DNA of 64,000 bases, from the NCBI RefSeq assembly GCF_903181435.1, contig NZ_CAEUHO010000001.1:2852001-2916000 (forward strand). Direction: 5' to 3'. A program made the translations under genes and the position numbers. The notes below the pieces were generated by a model that was given only the letters and a program-made list of their open reading frames with translations, was not told the origin of the DNA and made no database searches. The number at the start of each line of letters is the position of its first letter. Within the stretch, counting starts at the first letter, position 1. Source of the DNA: Bacteroides acidifaciens. GTDB lineage: Bacteria > Bacteroidota > Bacteroidia > Bacteroidales > Bacteroidaceae. Positions 22,019 through 31,260 of the stretch are shown in pieces.

Positions 22019-23266
22019 TTACATAGGCATCGTGGTGTTACCGCCCTCTGTCCACGGTTCAACAGAAACCTCGAAGTTGATCTGACCACCTTCATGCTCT
22101 TCTCCACCGTCACCACCATCTGGTAGTTCAATATCCGGGTCAACCGGAGTAGTCGGGTCAACAGCACCGGAACCGTTAGTAAAATCGAGTAGGAAAGTAT
22201 ACTTCATGCCTTGCTCCAACTTAAATGAAATAGGAATCATTGCCAGACCGTATTTATTTTCTGAACCTACAATATATTTTATATTACCACTTGTATCAGT
22301 CATAGTTACCTTACAAATAACGGAAAGATATGTTCCCTTAGGAGCATTTGTTGGATCGTATTTAGTTGTACCTTGCTCTTGAGCAGACTCAACTGTCGGG
22401 AACAGCATGAATGACTCGGCTTCAGGCAGGACTGATTTCCAGCTAGCATCCAAAGTAGTAGGTATTGCGTTCTCATGCCAACGAATCCAAGCGTCTCCTG
22501 AAGGATCAGTTCCCTCCTTCTCATGAGACCATGTACCGGTAAAATTAGAATGTGCCGTGCCTTCTGGTACATCTGCAACATTATACACCCAAGTTCCATA
22601 TTGGTACAGACCTTTTATACGCGCACCCAGCACTTCCACTGTTCGACCATTACCATGTTTGTCGTTCTTAGCTTGTATTTCAACCTTTGATAAAAGGTGC
22701 TTAAAATTTAGTTTTACGGCACCATCTCCCTCTTTACCCTCATAGAAAGCGGCACAGATATCATGCATCGGATGATCTTTTGTAACTGTTGCTCCATCAC
22801 CATTATATTGTGTATATTTGCCATCAGCGTCCATGTAATGTGGACCATTATGGATTTGCGCGTCCTTGAGGAATGGATATTTGTTGCCTGTAACTCCTTC
22901 ATCACCTGCAACTGGTTCCTTGAAGTAGGCATTTGACGAGCCGTGAACTGCGAAAAATCTCAAAGCTTTGTCTTTCTTCTTCCAATTGTAAATTCTGTCT
23001 GTTACCCAGTTACCATCTACTTTATTCACATTTTCAGGACCAAAGTAGTGTTTATTCTCCCAGTCATAGCAGACAACCTTGAACGTAGATATGTTGTCTC
23101 CAGTAGTCGTATTGTTACGCGTGACAGGCGCTTTGTCCAAGATAGTTCTAAAAGTGATAGCACTACCGTTGCTATCAAGAGCAGAAGAATCGTTGATAAC
23201 CTCATCCTGAGAACAGGAAGTCATTGCAATGGCTGCTAAAGCCGCTAAATAAAAACTTTTTTTCAT
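22019..23266 (-). CDS. Fimbrillin-family lipoprotein (major stalk subunit candidate)
   Basis: A 415-residue lipoprotein starting at the ATG at 23266 (lipobox IAMTSC). Typical fimbrillin features are the N-terminal SAITFRTILDKAPVTR, the FKVVCYDWENKHYFGPENV strand region, LNFKHLLSKVEIQAKN near the middle, and the final ISFKLEQGMKYTFLLDFTNGSGA followed by an acidic spacer and a terminal FEVSVEPWTEGG strand. A terminal strand of this type usually serves donor-strand assembly in type V fimbriae. It lies downstream of DUF5119 after a 270-base gap. No promoter could be identified in that gap. Confidence 0.85.
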   Translation of the reverse strand: MKKSFYLAALAAIAMTSCSQDEVINDSSALDSNGSAITFRTILDKAPVTRNNTTTGDNISTFKVVCYDWENKHYFGPENVNKVDGNWVTDRIYNWKKKDKALRFFAVHGSSNAYFKEPVAGDEGVTGNKYPFLKDAQIHNGPHYMDADGKYTQYNGDGATVTKDHPMHDICAAFYEGKEGDGAVKLNFKHLLSKVEIQAKNDKHGNGRTVEVLGARIKGLYQYGTWVYNVADVPEGTAHSNFTGTWSHEKEGTDPSGDAWIRWHENAIPTTLDASWKSVLPEAESFMLFPTVESAQEQGTTKYDPTNAPKGTYLSVICKVTMTDTSGNIKYIVGSENKYGLAMIPISFKLEQGMKYTFLLDFTNGSGAVDPTTPVDPDIELPDGGDGGEEHEGGQINFEVSVEPWTEGGNTTMPM

Positions 23267-23536
23267 ATTATAACACAAATAATTGTTTAAATCCGGTTTA
23301 AACGGATTGGGATTAAATAACTAATAATTTATCAAACATTTGTTTTAGTTTCTACCCATAGGTAGGTGATCCGATTGTGTGACTTGCGTCCAGATTCGTT
23401 GTCTGTCCGGATTCCGGCAAAAGTGGCGGAACGCTTGTCGTTCACATCCACAAGTTTCATTACGGCATTTTTTTTTCATACCTTTGAAAAAATTAATAAT
23501 TAACTTATATATGATAGCTTGAAAATTGAATGCTTG

Positions 23537-24487
23537 CTACATCGGGATCTCAATCTCATCACCGTCCATCCAGTCGCCCACGTCCGGGTTGAAACCGCCA
23601 CCGTTTGTAATCGGCTTCGGAAGCTCCAGACCGTCAATCACGATCTCCACATTACATTGGTCGGTTGCCCCATGCACCTGGTCGGTGACGTTGAACGTCT
23701 GATAGAATCTGCTGCCATCCGCCAATATGGCATAGATGGTCAGTTGGTGCGGATTATCCAACGTGGGGCAATGACCGAACACGTGGAAGTTTGACGTGAT
23801 GGTGGATTCCATATCCGAGTTTCCTGGGAACGACATCGTCACCAGCTCCTTGGTAAGTTCGCCACTTCCTGCCAGCAGTCCGCCCGCCATACTTGAAAGC
23901 GCCCCGCTTATGTCACGTGCATATTTCAGGTTGGTGACGTTAAGCACCTTTACCGTGTAGTTGCAGAGCTTTCTTTCAGGATAGAGCGTGATTTTATAGC
24001 TTTGGGTAGGGTCGGTGAGGTATATTCCCATCTCGCCGGCACTCCACAGCCTGTCGGGTGTGTATGCCGCACGCTCGTTTTCCGTACCTTCTGCTCTAGG
24101 CGGCTCACTTCCGCGCACTCCCAGGAAGGAAAGCAGCGAAGTAGTGACGGTACGCACTTCAAACGTCTCCCAGCGACCTGTGCCTTGAAGCTGGTTCGTC
24201 TCCGAGTCGCTGTTGATACCGACTACATTGTAGCGTCCCAGCGGCACGGAAATCTTGCCGCCATTCTTGCCTGCGAACTGAAAACGTTCGGCTGCTCCTC
24301 CTTCTTCGGGAACAAAGTATATGTCCATTGTCGTCGGATCAGCGTCAGGCGCGTTCTTCCAGTCGAAGACAACCTCCACATCCACAAAGTGACGATGGTC
24401 GTAGCACAGCTCTTTGTGCTCGCACGAGCTGAAAAGCAGTCCTGCCGTAAGCGACAATATACTTGCTATCCTTTTTATCTTTTTCAT
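23537..24487 (-). CDS. DUF5119 family lipoprotein (fimbria-associated)
   Basis: A 316-residue lipoprotein (lipobox LLFSSC) with the DUF5119 start CEHKELCYDHRHFVDVEVVFDWKNAPDA and MDIYFVPEEGG, followed by GRYNVVGINSDSE and a long beta-rich domain ending in VEIVIDGLELPKPI. DUF5119 proteins accompany fimbrillin genes in Bacteroides and resemble Mfa2-type anchors, which regulate fibre length and fix it to the outer membrane. Its ATG overlaps the stop of the upstream DUF3575 gene (ATGA), so the two are translationally coupled. Confidence 0.85.
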   Translation of the reverse strand: MKKIKRIASILSLTAGLLFSSCEHKELCYDHRHFVDVEVVFDWKNAPDADPTTMDIYFVPEEGGAAERFQFAGKNGGKISVPLGRYNVVGINSDSETNQLQGTGRWETFEVRTVTTSLLSFLGVRGSEPPRAEGTENERAAYTPDRLWSAGEMGIYLTDPTQSYKITLYPERKLCNYTVKVLNVTNLKYARDISGALSSMAGGLLAGSGELTKELVTMSFPGNSDMESTITSNFHVFGHCPTLDNPHQLTIYAILADGSRFYQTFNVTDQVHGATDQCNVEIVIDGLELPKPITNGGGFNPDVGDWMDGDEIEIPM

Positions 24488-26187
24488 TGTTTCCCTCCTT
24501 TCTTCTCATTGTAGTTACCGCGTCCTATCAGCCACACGAGGGATACTTCTGCCTTGGTGGGTCCGAACCAGTGGCGTTGCTTGGTCTGCTCCCATACGTA
24601 GTGTGTGTCAACAGGATTATATTTCCTGTATTCACCTGTCAGATAGCCTACACCGACACCGAAGTCGAGATTCAGCCTACGTGCAACAGGAAGCGAATAA
24701 CCGTATTCGATACCCACGCCATAAGATGGCTTATCCAGCAACTTTCCGCCCGGCTTGCCACCCATGTAGCCTTTTCCTCCCAACTCTACATCGTAGGTCA
24801 GTGCTTGCAGGTAGAGCCCGAGATGGTGACCCTCGAATGCTTTTTGTTTGGCGCGTTTGCCTAAATACTTGCGAACATCAAGTTCGCCACCGTAAATTCT
24901 CCAGTAGTTGTGGGCACGGTCGTTTTTCCACCATGCGTGCATCCATGAAGCACCTATCGTCCAGCCACGACCCAAATAAAATTCTGCTCCTACATTAGGT
25001 ACAAGCGCTGCGTCATAAAGCAGATTGCTCTTGACCGCCATCTGGAACGGCTTGCGCACACGTTCTTCCGCTTCCACCGATATTTTTCTCGCCATTGCAG
25101 CTGCTTCGGCTGCTTCAGCGGCAGCACGTTTTGCCTTCTCGGCTGCGGCACGTGCACGCTCCACGGCTTCATCGGCCTGTGCCTGTGTCTTGGCTACAAC
25201 CGCTTCGGCATTCACCCTCGCCACATGGTCGGCAGGAACGTCGCCTATGACAGCAAGCACCTCCTCGGCATTGCGACGCGCTTCGGCTGCTTCCGCAAAG
25301 GCTTCATCGGCAGCTGCGATGGCTGCATCCGCTGCGTTCTGCGCCCTGTCTGCCGCCACCGAGGCACGGGTTGCCGCCGCAAGAATAACGTCCGCCTGCT
25401 CCTGAGTGATTTTTTTGCCTTCTACAAACGTCTCTTTCGCTGCTGCTACCGCCTCAGCAGCGGCAGCCACGGCAATACCCGCCTCATGTTCCGCAAGTGC
25501 GGCTGCTGCAAGAGCCTTGTCGGCCGAAACATTCGCCTTGAACGAAAAGTCGGTAGCCTGAGCGATGCTCACACTATGATCGGGGATGGTATCGTACTCG
25601 CACACCACACTGACACTTGACCCACGCAGTTCGGGGAAAAAGTGCTTGAACATATAATTCCACGCCTTCCCTCCACGAAGCACACTCAACTGTCGCTTAC
25701 GACTGTCGACCACCTTTTTATTTTTGAATACCCACTCGGGGGTATTGTGCAGAATATTGAGAACCTCTTCTTTATAAGGCATCTGTGAGGCAGTCACCAA
25801 TCTGATAAGCCCGTCCCAATCCACACCTTGAGAGTTTAATGAAACAAGAGAATCTGCTAGTGGGACTTCACGGATAAAATAATTCCGAATAACCGTACCA
25901 CGATCTAAACTCAAACGTTCATTGATACTACTGGACCCTTCCGGAGAAGCACCAGATTCCAGACGCAACTGACGGAAAACAATCGCAGTATCACCCCTAA
26001 GCTTTCTTAGCAACTCCACGGCACCCGACAGCGATGCCGCATTATTCCGGTACGACGGCTCCAGTTCTGAGCGCCCCGTTCGGAAATAAATTCTCGAGGA
26101 TAGCGTATCAGCACACGAGAATTCCTGTCCCGAGACTGATTCCAAAGCGAGAATCATCACCATTAATACTACTAATACTTTTCTCAT
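24484..26187 (-). CDS. DUF3575 outer-membrane protein with internal Ala-rich coiled coil
   Basis: A 567-residue exported protein (signal peptide cleaved near SVSGQ), first gene of the fimbrial series. Residues about 30-180 form an OmpA-like region (IYFRTGRSELEPSYRNN, LESGASPEGSSSINERLSLDRG) as in the DUF3868/DUF3575 family. Residues about 220-380 are an alanine/glutamate-rich, presumably coiled-coil insertion. Residues 380-567 are the DUF3575 barrel (MAVKSNLLYDAALVPNVGAEFYL, GYSLPVARRLNLDFGVGVGYLTGEYRKY, HWFGPTKAEVSLVWLIG). The coiled coil is not part of usual family members and could span the periplasm or bind peptidoglycan. The upstream 40 bases lead directly to the left inverted repeat of the proposed switch. 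Confidence 0.85.
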   Translation of the reverse strand: MRKVLVVLMVMILALESVSGQEFSCADTLSSRIYFRTGRSELEPSYRNNAASLSGAVELLRKLRGDTAIVFRQLRLESGASPEGSSSINERLSLDRGTVIRNYFIREVPLADSLVSLNSQGVDWDGLIRLVTASQMPYKEEVLNILHNTPEWVFKNKKVVDSRKRQLSVLRGGKAWNYMFKHFFPELRGSSVSVVCEYDTIPDHSVSIAQATDFSFKANVSADKALAAAALAEHEAGIAVAAAAEAVAAAKETFVEGKKITQEQADVILAAATRASVAADRAQNAADAAIAAADEAFAEAAEARRNAEEVLAVIGDVPADHVARVNAEAVVAKTQAQADEAVERARAAAEKAKRAAAEAAEAAAMARKISVEAEERVRKPFQMAVKSNLLYDAALVPNVGAEFYLGRGWTIGASWMHAWWKNDRAHNYWRIYGGELDVRKYLGKRAKQKAFEGHHLGLYLQALTYDVELGGKGYMGGKPGGKLLDKPSYGVGIEYGYSLPVARRLNLDFGVGVGYLTGEYRKYNPVDTHYVWEQTKQRHWFGPTKAEVSLVWLIGRGNYNEKKGGKQ

Positions 26188-26227: not shown

Positions 26228-26249
26228 CTCTATTCTATATAGAGCGGCA
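26228..26249. repeat. Left inverted repeat of the proposed invertible segment
   Basis: A 22-bp sequence exactly repeated in inverted orientation at 27496-27517. With the G at 26227 its core is GCTCTAT-N5-ATAGAGC, two short arms around an asymmetric spacer, as in tyrosine-recombinase core sites, followed by CGGCA. It lies 40 bases upstream of the first fimbrial gene. Confidence 0.75.
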
Positions 26250-26396
26250 AAACGAACATTTGTTTATAATCCACTGATTTACAAAAACTTGCTTATTAAC
26301 TGAAGAGTTGTTTGTTTCATTACTATGACAAACTAATAAAAAAATGTTTTTTTTACATATAATAGCATGTTATTTAGCTGTTTATGTGGGAAAATG

Positions 26397-26419
26397 CTGA
26401 AACAATGCTGAAACAATTA
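26397..26419 (+). repeat. Tandem 11-bp repeat upstream of the AraC gene
   Basis: Two adjacent copies of AATGCTGAAAC, starting about 45 bases ahead of the AraC start codon. AraC-type proteins often bind such paired direct half-sites, so this could be an autoregulatory site. The link is positional only. Confidence 0.4.
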
Positions 26420-26440
26420 AAGACATAAAATAATAAACTT

Positions 26441-27328
26441 ATGGATAAGAACCATTCATTACATTATTTCACAGAACATCGTAATTGTAAACATTATCTT
26501 TCTAAGGTGAATACCGGATTTGTTTACAGAGAGTTTGAGGCGGAGACGGAGTTTGTACTGGATAGCTCCACTCATCACTTGCTTATTTTTATGGAGGGCA
26601 GTTGCTTCATTGATTGTAACCGTTTTACAAACAGACTTTTCTCCGGCGGAGAGATGGTGTTAATACCAATGTCGGCAACGTTTGTCGGAAAGGTTGAGAA
26701 GCGGTTGCGCTTCATAGATATGTGTTTTGAAACACCTTTAAGTTATTGTGACAAGATGGTAATACAGAGTTACTCTCATTTCAGATCAAAGATATGCTAT
26801 ACTTTCCGTTCCTTGCCGGTGCGCAAACCTTTACCGGAGTTTTGCAACATGTTGGCATACTGTCTGGACAGCGGTTTTTCTTGCGAACAGTTCCATGAAA
26901 TGAAACACAGAGAATTATTCTTTTATTTGAGGGGATATTACTCAAAGGAGGAAATAACCGAACTGCTATACCCGATAGTGGACCGATCAATGGATTTCAA
27001 AGTTTTCGTGTGCAAGAACTTCAGCAGGGTGGATTCACTTGATGAGCTTGTCAAACTTTCTAATATGAGCAAGAGGACTTTTTTTCGTAAATTCAAGGCT
27101 GCATTTAATACAACTGCATATCAGTGGATGCTGAAACAAACGGTGAATACTATCATAGATGAATTCTCAAAACCGGATGCTGTTCTCAATGAAGTAGCCG
27201 AAAGACTAGGCTTCCATTCAATAAGCAACTTTAGTAATTTCTGTAAACGGAATACTGGCTATACACCGACGGAACTTATACAAAAATGCCGAAACAATGA
27301 GATTGTGAAAGAAGATATAGGATGCTAA
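26441..27328 (+). CDS. AraC-family transcriptional regulator
   Basis: A 295-residue regulator. The N-terminal half (about residues 1-190) is a cupin-like sensing domain (HHLLIFMEGSCFIDCNRF, LFSGGEMVLIPMSATFVG). The C-terminal 100 residues hold two helix-turn-helix motifs: LDELVKLSNMSKRTFFRKFKAAF, then VLNEVAERLGFHSISNFSNFCKRNTGYTP. It lies divergent from the fimbrial gene series and inside the proposed invertible segment, so its orientation would change with the switch. It probably controls the fimbrial operon, itself, or both. No exact TAnnTTTG box was found in the 190 bases upstream. The ligand is unknown. Confidence 0.88.
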   Translation: MDKNHSLHYFTEHRNCKHYLSKVNTGFVYREFEAETEFVLDSSTHHLLIFMEGSCFIDCNRFTNRLFSGGEMVLIPMSATFVGKVEKRLRFIDMCFETPLSYCDKMVIQSYSHFRSKICYTFRSLPVRKPLPEFCNMLAYCLDSGFSCEQFHEMKHRELFFYLRGYYSKEEITELLYPIVDRSMDFKVFVCKNFSRVDSLDELVKLSNMSKRTFFRKFKAAFNTTAYQWMLKQTVNTIIDEFSKPDAVLNEVAERLGFHSISNFSNFCKRNTGYTPTELIQKCRNNEIVKEDIGC

Positions 27329-27448
27329 GGGTTAGTAAAATATGCGGGATTTATTCCCAAATCAGTGAGAAGGAATAAATCCCAAAATGGCAATATTTAT
27401 AAAGTGAAAATGTCTCTTTTTTGCAACTGATAATTGAAAAAAAACATC

Positions 27449-27456
27449 TATCTTTG
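27449..27456 (+). promoter_or_regulatory. Outward-facing promoter inside the invertible segment (currently orphan)
   Basis: TATCTTTG is a perfect -7 consensus. The nearest TTTG upstream (27420-27423) is 25 bases away, somewhat longer than the usual 19-21. It lies after the AraC gene and reads rightward through the right inverted repeat toward the end of a gene on the opposite strand, so it has no obvious target in this orientation. Confidence 0.55.
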
Positions 27457-27495
27457 CAGCCGGAATGATAAACAAATGGAAGCCGTTTTCCCACA

Positions 27496-27517
27496 TGCCG
27501 CTCTATATAGAATAGAG
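27496..27517. repeat. Right inverted repeat of the proposed invertible segment
   Basis: Exact reverse complement of 26228-26249 over 22 bases. Outside the match the flanks differ, so the repeat is sharply bounded on its outer side. Confidence 0.75.
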
Positions 27518-29488: not shown

Positions 29489-29545
29489 AAATCGTTTCTA
29501 GTATTGCCTTACACTTCTTCACATACCGGCATATCCATCCCTTTA
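29489..29545. repeat. Right 57-bp direct repeat (end of the intact ATPase gene)
   Basis: Direct repeat of 15069-15125 with three differences. It covers the last 12 codons of the ATPase gene, its stop codon and about 20 bases beyond. Confidence 0.75.
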
Positions 29546-31260
29546 TACACTACCACAATCTTGTGCAATTTCGTAGTGCCAACAGCTCGTTTCACAGTCT
29601 CCGTTTCTGCATAGCGGTTAGCTTGTTCGATAGCTTCCTGCCGCAATTCATCCACACGGCTTTCAGAGTCCTTGTATTTTGCATACTTCAATTCTATAAT
29701 ATAACTATGCGTCATGTCGGAATAGATATCCAACAAGGGACATAGGAATATATCGACATAGCCTGCTTGCGTGTCTTGCTCGGAGATAGGACGGTAAAAG
29801 CGGTTCTGCGCTGTCATGGCAAGGGTGAAGCCATGGACGAAAAATTCACCTTTCTGTTTGTCACGTTGGGAAGCGTAACGTTTCAGGCAGTCGGCAATGT
29901 AGCCGAAATAGGCTTTCCATTCGCCATCGTAGGCAAGTCGACTAGAAAGTTCGTTCTTCTCGTAGCTGCTGAAACTCAAGTCTGCATCATTGTATGTATT
30001 CAGCAAATAAGTATAGAGTTGCTCCTGAACCACTTGATTAGGGATGGTCAACTTAGTCTTTCCCTTATGTAATCCGCTAATGGTGAGCATACCGAAATAA
30101 TAGAGTAAACTCACAAAGTTGTCAGGATTGGTGATGCTGACAGCAGGGAAGCCTTTCTTCAACTCTCCCGTGATATAGCCTTGACTTACTAAAGTCTGGA
30201 CGACAGAAGCATCATGTGCAAACTCCTTGTCCTTGCGGATAAGCATACGCAATTTTTCATAATCGATACGGATATTATCTTCTACCATATCCCGTGGCGC
30301 CCTACCACTCATAATATAGTTTTTAACAAAATAGAGCACCATATTAGAATTATACATCGTGGTATCACCGTAACATTCTTGAGCAAAACAATAGTTGTCA
30401 TACCACGGCTTCATTATTCCTATCAGTTCATCTACAGTATGCTTGAAAGGACTGTTTGTTGAATAGTAAGTCAGCATTTCGCGCACTTCCTCTTCAGTGA
30501 ACCCCATCATTTCGTTAAATTCGGATGTAAGCGAATAATTAGTACCGATATTGAACCCACTAGTCAAATCATCCATTGTTACAGGGCTTACGCCCGTTAT
30601 GAAACAGCGTTTGATGCTGGAATAGGTTCCTGCCTTAATCTTATTGAAGAAGGCGCGGAGATAACCTTCACCATGTGTTTCATTGGTATAGCGGTGCAAG
30701 CTTTCGGGGTCGGCAAGTATGGCATTGGTGAAATGGTCGTACTCGTCAATAAACAGATAAATATCCCGACCGGCACGCTCACACTCATGATAAAGAAAGT
30801 CGAGCTGATTGACTGCCCCATCCTTTTCATCCAACCTCTCTTTGATACCTTGCGGCAGAAGGTCGGCATAGACTTCGCAGAAATAGTCAAAACAGATTTG
30901 GCAATGCGCATCCAGTCCTTCACGGTAGTTACTCAGTTCACCGACAATTCCGGAGAAATTGAGATAAAGCACCAGATAACTATTACGGTCACGCGTGGGA
31001 TACTTACCTATATATAAGTCTCCGAAGAGTTCATCGAATTTGTCTTTAGTACGCACATCATAATAATGTTGTAGCACATTCAGCGTCAGGCTTTTTCCGA
31101 AACGTCGGGGGCGCATGAAGAAAAAGAAACGGTCTGCCTGTTCTATCAGAGGTATGAAATGGGTTTTGTCAACATAATAATAGTCTTCACGGCGAATTAA
31201 TGCGAAGTTCATCATACCGTAGGGAATGCGCTTTCTGTCCGGAAATAAATATTTTTCCAT
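29509..31260 (-). CDS. AAA-ATPase-like protein with C-terminal PD-(D/E)XK nuclease domain
   Basis: A 583-residue protein of the AAA-ATPase-like/PDDEXK family that is present in many copies in Bacteroides. The start GMMNFALIRREDYYYVDKT is typical. The P-loop is RPRRFGKS (residues 50-57) and the Walker B-like segment is IYLFIDEYDHF. The middle contains FITGVSPVTMDDLTSGFNIGTN. The C-terminal nuclease-like fold has VDIFLCPLLDIY..HSYIIELKYAK with the D..ExK signature. Function is unknown; mobility-related or defence roles are suggested for the family. It lies at the right end of the accessory island, and its last codons are duplicated at the left end. Confidence 0.88.
   Translation of the reverse strand: MEKYLFPDRKRIPYGMMNFALIRREDYYYVDKTHFIPLIEQADRFFFFMRPRRFGKSLTLNVLQHYYDVRTKDKFDELFGDLYIGKYPTRDRNSYLVLYLNFSGIVGELSNYREGLDAHCQICFDYFCEVYADLLPQGIKERLDEKDGAVNQLDFLYHECERAGRDIYLFIDEYDHFTNAILADPESLHRYTNETHGEGYLRAFFNKIKAGTYSSIKRCFITGVSPVTMDDLTSGFNIGTNYSLTSEFNEMMGFTEEEVREMLTYYSTNSPFKHTVDELIGIMKPWYDNYCFAQECYGDTTMYNSNMVLYFVKNYIMSGRAPRDMVEDNIRIDYEKLRMLIRKDKEFAHDASVVQTLVSQGYITGELKKGFPAVSITNPDNFVSLLYYFGMLTISGLHKGKTKLTIPNQVVQEQLYTYLLNTYNDADLSFSSYEKNELSSRLAYDGEWKAYFGYIADCLKRYASQRDKQKGEFFVHGFTLAMTAQNRFYRPISEQDTQAGYVDIFLCPLLDIYSDMTHSYIIELKYAKYKDSESRVDELRQEAIEQANRYAETETVKRAVGTTKLHKIVVVYKGMDMPVCEEV

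Follow-up and report, generated by a model that had tools for sequence, protein, structure and literature searches.

An AraC-family regulator gene enclosed by inverted repeats, with a tyrosine recombinase gene on one side and a fimbrial gene series on the other, raises the question of whether fimbriae in Bacteroides acidifaciens are controlled by inverting a DNA segment that carries a regulator as well as a promoter. The locus was studied within a stretch of 64 kb (hereafter, the window) and compared with related loci. On this basis, it very probably provides phase variation of a type V fimbrial operon: the adjacent recombinase would invert a cassette made up of araC and an outward promoter.

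Organization of the locus

The features of the locus are listed in Table 1. An initial annotation of this DNA had described 22-bp inverted repeats around a complete AraC-type gene, which was confirmed here: the two copies agree at 22/22 positions, with 1246 nt between the arms. It had also assigned the core GCTCTAT-N5-ATAGAGC to each repeat; this core is complete in the left copy, but the right copy differs at the outermost arm base. With up to three mismatches allowed, the repeat occurred only in these two copies in the 64-kb window (mean of 0.00 in 100 shuffles), and a multi-site or shufflon arrangement with more than two sites was not observed. Including its repeats, the segment measures 1290 bp and contains a complete 295-aa gene, rather than being of the short, gene-free intergenic type. 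For a rough background estimate, 465 random 0.88-kb intervals from the fetched loci were examined, and one of them was bracketed at the repeat score of the cassettes.

Table 1. Features of the araC segment and its surroundings in the window
Feature	Position	Strand	Evidence or remark
Large fimbrillin-like protein (Mfa_like_1), 986 aa	18741..21701	-	Pfam PF13149, E 4e-19
Fimbrillin-like protein (Mfa_like_1)	22019..23278	-	Pfam PF13149, E 1e-9
DUF5119 protein of the fimbrial operon	23537..24487	-	Pfam PF17145, E 1e-53
DUF3575 protein, leads the fimbrial operon	24484..26187	-	Pfam PF12099, E 8e-40
Left inverted repeat, fimbria side	26228..26249	+	Presumed recombination site CTCTATTCTATATAGAGCGGCA; exact 22-bp match
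TGAAACA tandem (11-bp period) preceding araC	26394..26416	+	Candidate operator
AraC-family regulator, 295 aa	26441..27328	+	Pfam HTH_18 (E 9e-16) and HTH_AraC, both above cut-off
Bacteroides -7-like element TATCTTTG	27449..27456	+	Past the araC stop, outward toward the recombinase
Right inverted repeat, recombinase side	27496..27517	-	Exact 22-bp match to the left copy
Tyrosine recombinase (presumed invertase), 402 aa	27583..28791	-	Pfam Arm-DNA-bind_5, Phage_int_SAM_5, Phage_integrase

The positions of the neighbouring genes were likewise as first annotated, with the recombinase just past the right repeat (65 bases away) and the fimbrial series starting 40 bases past the left one. These 40 bases, which end at the first fimbrial start codon, suggest that the operon promoter would lie in the segment or very near it. 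The operon itself combines two Mfa_like_1 genes with a DUF5119 and a DUF3575 gene in one series, and was thus assigned to the type V (Mfa/Fim) fimbrial operons; judging from its length, the 986-aa fimbrillin-like protein is possibly the tip subunit. In an alignment of 20 recombinases, the window protein contains R252, K278, R351, H374, and Y383, which we take to be the catalytic residues of a tyrosine recombinase, and has Y348 where many members have His. The locus therefore contains two elements of an inversion switch, a pair of inverted sites with identical spacers and an adjacent recombinase with its catalytic residues. Upstream of the recombinase gene, an AAA-ATPase_like/PDDEXK_9 gene is located at 29509-31260. 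No family was matched in an Rfam scan of the window, and sigma-70 promoter and terminator scans of the same DNA gave nothing above shuffles.

Distribution of araC cassettes in relatives

The relatives were a non-random sample, selected because their AraC or their recombinase resembled that of the window. AraC homologues were taken from whole genomes and from genomes of named species, and 60 homologue regions were fetched from many more matching places. A later AraC search gave 12 places, of which the 8 outside G001 were fetched, and a ninth fetched region, L168, was left out of the analysis; the recombinase search gave 37 places, from which 20 regions were fetched. In the first pass, 10 of the 30 loci picked on AraC similarity alone were bracketed by inverted repeats of at least 18 bp, and L049 and L050 were picked because repeats had already been seen there in that pass.

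One rule was applied to 94 distinct AraC-homologue genes, with loci present under two identifiers merged by protein sequence. Both repeats and a recombinase were found at 19 genes, repeats only at 0, a recombinase only at 2, and neither at 73. Thus, every repeat-bracketed araC (19/19) has a recombinase within 3.5 kb, and none of the 73 araC genes without a recombinase is bracketed. The two recombinase-only cases (L038 and L039) are second araC genes located beyond a recombinase that has a bracketed cassette of its own. They lie outside the repeats, across the recombinase from the cassette (L038:12484-13350 and L039:11927-12787), and the same order is seen in L200. Under a looser rule, the araC of L135, an 8-kb contig with no recombinase, is bracketed by an 18-of-20 repeat.

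In total, 24 cassettes including the window were collected, each spanning 1180-1432 bp and together representing about six repeat types. Four of them (L200, L204, L205, and L208) were added by the recombinase search; neither these nor the window are counted among the 94 genes. L204 and L205 are nearly the same sequence (98.5% identity), and L049 and L109 are close paralogues in one genome. The recombinase is located outside the repeats in all 24 cassettes; in L167, 3.1 kb and two genes separate it from the cassette. A DUF3575 gene is found on the far side of the segment in 18 of the 24. A FimA-type fimbrillin was detected by Pfam in four cassettes (L033, L038, L039, and, by a narrow margin over the cut-off, L167), and a protein of similar appearance in L200 is a candidate. 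B. fragilis strain S82 also has a cassette (L059). The full regulator gene within the segment, which had been singled out as the less usual feature of the locus, is indeed present but is no one-off, as it recurs in Bacteroidales. Two further arrangements were observed around related recombinases: at L208:3521-6270, a third, imperfect repeat copy adjoins the recombinase beyond an ATPase-like gene, and a larger segment might also invert there; at L202:7355-8097, a perfect 44-bp inverted repeat, its copies about 650 bp apart, comes after a window-related recombinase.

Recombination sites and recombinase clades

The arm motif of the repeats follows the clades of the recombinase tree. Clade A (the window, L051, and L031-L039) has the arm CTCTAT..ATAGAG, clade B (L045, L049, L065, L066, and L109) has CTCTCT..AGAGAG, and clade C (L042 and L110) has CATCTGT..ACAGAT; L050 and L167 have arm motifs of their own. 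Among the four cassettes outside the tree, the clade-A motif recurs in L200 and the clade-C motif in L208; L204/L205 have another one. The spacers are identical between the two copies of a locus, with one mismatch in L110, and different between loci. The first catalytic Arg is replaced by Gln in 10 of the 20 aligned recombinases, namely L031-L039 and L050 (QGM versus RGM), and is kept in the window and in the other aligned recombinase clades.

Inversion between closely related loci

When the window repeat was searched with up to three mismatches in 158 genomes of the same genus, 0 matches were obtained, and hence no allelic locus was available for comparing orientation. The comparison of orientation between genomes was therefore made in relatives. 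The segments of L065 (a metagenome-assembled genome, JAQYTJ010000024.1) and L066 (B. xylanisolvens XB1A, NC_021017.1) are 97.7% identical over 1199 bp and have opposite relative orientations, with recombinase flanks that are 98.7% identical over 3074 bp. The 100 bp inside each repeat match at 91% and 98% when swapped and at 42-44% as placed, where four control arms give 42-48%. Outside the repeats, the adjoining 100 bp stay on their own side, with 92% identity on the recombinase side and 73% on the fimbrial side. On the fimbrial side, L066 contains an N run and is rearranged, which limits the alignment of this flank to about 100 bp (the 73% above); a DUF3575 piece (92%, 685 bp) aligns beside the N run on a strand other than expected. 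This pair represents an inversion with its breakpoint at the repeats, in clade B of the cassette family.

A second comparison gave a similar picture at greater distance. L045 and L065 share the fimbrial flank (76% over 5354 bp) and the recombinase flank (85% over 1370 bp), and the segment is again reversed (73% over 1206 bp); their 100-bp arms, at 56-61% swapped and 45-47% as placed, are too diverged to decide. Across the collection, 23 of the 24 cassettes are oriented as in the window and L065 alone is inverted. None of the 12 cassettes with clade-A repeats is inverted, and L065, the inverted one, is a clade-B locus from a metagenome assembly. The initial reading of the locus as an inversion switch is supported by this clade-B relative with a different repeat type, and the same behaviour may be expected of the window. 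The opposite outcome, in which inverted relatives would be absent and the repeats conserved at araC genes without a recombinase, was not what the survey returned.

Promoter-like element and phase of the window

The promoter that had been placed within the segment would correspond to TATCTTTG, a -7-like outward element recognized here as a motif; the Bacteroides promoter consensus is TAnnTTTG, as cited in PMC4747536. The element runs in the direction of araC, and inversion would turn it toward the fimbrial operon. Outward copies of TAnnTTTG at the araC 3' end were found in 11 of 19 cassettes (2.6 expected), but the opposite strand there also has copies in 7 of 19 (2.6 expected); at the other segment end, outward copies were found in 0/19 (5.2 expected). 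A sharper motif, TTTGCA, was chosen after viewing the sequences, and its counts were refined post hoc; it is directed outward past araC in 17 of 19 cassettes against 1.5 expected, and outward at the other end in 0/19. It is also present in L200, L204, L205, and L208, is replaced by TTTTGTA in L038 and L051, and was not seen in L167 on inspection by eye. Measured from the outer edge of the repeat, the motif begins at 62-65 nt in all cassettes with clade-A repeats but one, or 11 of 12 (65 in the window, 62 in L200); in L051 it begins at 71 nt.

At the window element, no clear -33 element was found at the usual spacing, which would fit an activator-dependent promoter. Since the element aims away from the fimbrial operon, the window is probably in the OFF phase.

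AraC regulator and its fixed counterparts

The regulator has the C-terminal AraC HTH domain of its family. Its AlphaFold model (mean pLDDT of 85.4, with residues 1-22 below 50) shows a strand-rich N-terminal part, with strands at about 26-96, followed by the HTH domain. Residues 11-96 gave a weak profile match to a PDB cupin (E 0.006), and the N-terminal part may be cupin-like. A protein search returned 17 homologues with identities of 97, 85, 72, 70% and lower, and no relative was found in viral contigs searched with the AraC profile. Of 20 cassettes, 12 have the tandem TGAAACA repeat in their upstream part, compared with 0.01 expected from shuffles, as counted with an expression composed after inspecting the alignment. 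This tandem is a candidate autoregulatory operator of araC.

Homologous AraC genes are also found in fixed Bacteroidales loci, upstream of DUF3575 genes, with no recombinase within 3.5 kb and no repeats. Of the araC genes lacking both repeats and recombinase, 33 stand within 2 kb of a fimbrial gene, and 31 of these 33 are upstream of that gene and co-directional with it, the exceptions being L115 and L122; L048, L074, and L111, where the DUF3575 gene is more than 2 kb from araC, were left out of this count. This fixed order is the one that inversion of a cassette would create. A TTTG[CT] motif is present in 22 of 25 fixed araC-DUF3575 gaps, as a raw count. On an AraC tree of 52 genes, 32 of them without a recombinase, the invertible label requires 6 changes, compared with about 16 when labels are shuffled, which indicates that conversions between fixed and invertible forms occurred several times, in a direction not given by the tree. 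Four genes labelled as fixed on this tree (L053, L055, L056, and L060) are Parabacteroides homologues with no recombinase and no fimbrial query match nearby.

Proposed switch and alternative explanations

In the proposed mechanism, the neighbouring tyrosine recombinase would invert the 1.29-kb segment between the two sites. As the segment now lies, araC and the promoter would face the recombinase gene and no promoter would face the operon (OFF). After inversion, recombinase, araC, promoter, and fimbrial operon would follow one another in one direction (ON), with AraC probably activating the promoter of the segment.

The near-palindromic cores and the shared orientation of 23 of 24 cassettes could also be explained if the repeats were fixed AraC operators, with no inversion and the recombinase as an unrelated neighbour. 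Operators, however, would need neither an arm motif that follows the recombinase clade nor spacers that match within a locus; the repeats are absent from all 73 araC genes with no recombinase within 3.5 kb, and the TGAAACA tandem is a better operator candidate. The opposite orientations of the clade-B pair already contradict fixed operators for that clade, and for the window we consider them highly improbable. The bracketing of one gene beside an integrase-like gene, and the presence of cassettes at different fimbrial operons, might instead suggest that the repeats are the ends of an araC-bearing mobile element and the recombinase its integrase. This is hardly credible, as the recombinase lies outside the repeats throughout the 24 cassettes and opposite orientations at one place represent inversion. 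Both explanations were rejected.

The other alternatives accept inversion and concern what it does at present. The switch may have inverted formerly and now be locked OFF, or be too biased for any role, in the window lineage; the prevailing orientation, with 12 of 12 clade-A-repeat cassettes OFF, and the loss of the first catalytic Arg from nine clade-A recombinases (L031-L039) would agree with this. The window recombinase nevertheless retains Arg252 and the other catalytic residues, and the window repeats are identical over 22 bp although spacers vary between loci. A strong bias also has a precedent in the promoter IVp-I of B. fragilis, which is controlled by BF2766 and is described in the consulted sections of PMC4747536 as OFF both in culture and in the majority of faecal samples but still invertible. 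In addition, each of six promoter-only fimbrial switches identified here carries a promoter-like motif facing away from its operon, although three carry one facing the operon as well. A locked switch is therefore judged distinctly unlikely. Somewhat less unlikely, but still improbable, is that inversion mainly switches the regulator, with araC read through from the recombinase transcript and AraC acting on other genes or on recombination. In the ON orientation (L065), recombinase and araC are co-directional, and an AraC gene between the sites could affect synapsis; the near-constant distance of the outward motif from the repeat and the fixed araC loci point instead to the fimbrial operon as the target. 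We therefore retain inversion of the araC-promoter cassette as the most probable control of the fimbrial operon.

A broader interpretation can be offered tentatively, as possible rather than probable: the cassettes may form a recurrent, separate class of switch in Bacteroidales, in which a fixed, operon-leading araC was repeatedly made invertible by gaining sites and a dedicated recombinase. A signal acting through AraC would then gate the ON state, making fimbriae dependent on both orientation and cue, and AraC might in addition favour one direction of inversion.

Relation to known invertible systems

Fimbria-related inversions and gene-carrying inversions are known in Bacteroides, and the araC-carrying form may be new. 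A phase-variable, fimbria-related surface-protein locus of B. fragilis was reportedly described by Weinacht et al. in 2004. According to the available text of PMC12632263, a phase-variable B. fragilis locus matched an N-terminally sequenced fimbrial protein, and the authors were then unable to show true fimbriae. The B. fragilis Tsr19 and BF2766 promoters resemble the window in having a tyrosine recombinase beside inverted repeats and a TAnnTTTG promoter aimed at a surface-structure operon, but the portions of these reports that were available mention no regulator gene in the segment of such Tsr-type inversions (PMC12632263, PMC4747536). Larger inversions carrying genes also occur in Bacteroides (excerpts of PMC12632263 and PMC8375218); these move surface or uptake genes, whereas the window segment would move an activator gene with the promoter of its target. 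In gut communities, certain inverton groups are enriched for nearby fimbrillin-family genes and site-specific integrases, according to a survey whose main text, as far as available, does not contain the word AraC (PMC11892184).

The promoter-only fimbrial switches identified here (L206, L207, L209, L210, L211, and L217) are similar to the window in their related recombinase, inverted repeats, and adjoining DUF3575 gene. Unlike the window, they measure 198-674 bp, with no ORF longer than 67 aa and no regulator. Outside Bacteroidales, the fimS element of E. coli likewise inverts beside surface-appendage genes, but is about 300 bp and promoter-only; the Salmonella hin and Providencia stuartii fimbrial segments enclose a complete gene as in the window, although that gene is the recombinase rather than an AraC regulator (all from the consulted part of PMC5903667). 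Among the matches listed in a full-text literature search, which covered sources other than older primary reports and in part only excerpts, no description of an AraC gene in an invertible fimbrial segment was found.

The inverting unit appears to be a small circuit consisting of a promoter and a regulator gene. Gene-containing segments of this kind are easily missed in surveys of intergenic invertible regions, and the PhaseFinder survey was limited to such regions, according to the part of a review that was available (PMC11868660). The strong OFF bias in the genomes analysed here raises the question of whether the ON state occurs mainly in the host. The presence of fixed and invertible versions together provides a way to study how a steadily regulated operon turns phase-variable. 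If the proposed mechanism is true, fimbrial expression in these bacteria would be set by a heritable switch and by a signal read by AraC, both carried on the same piece of DNA.
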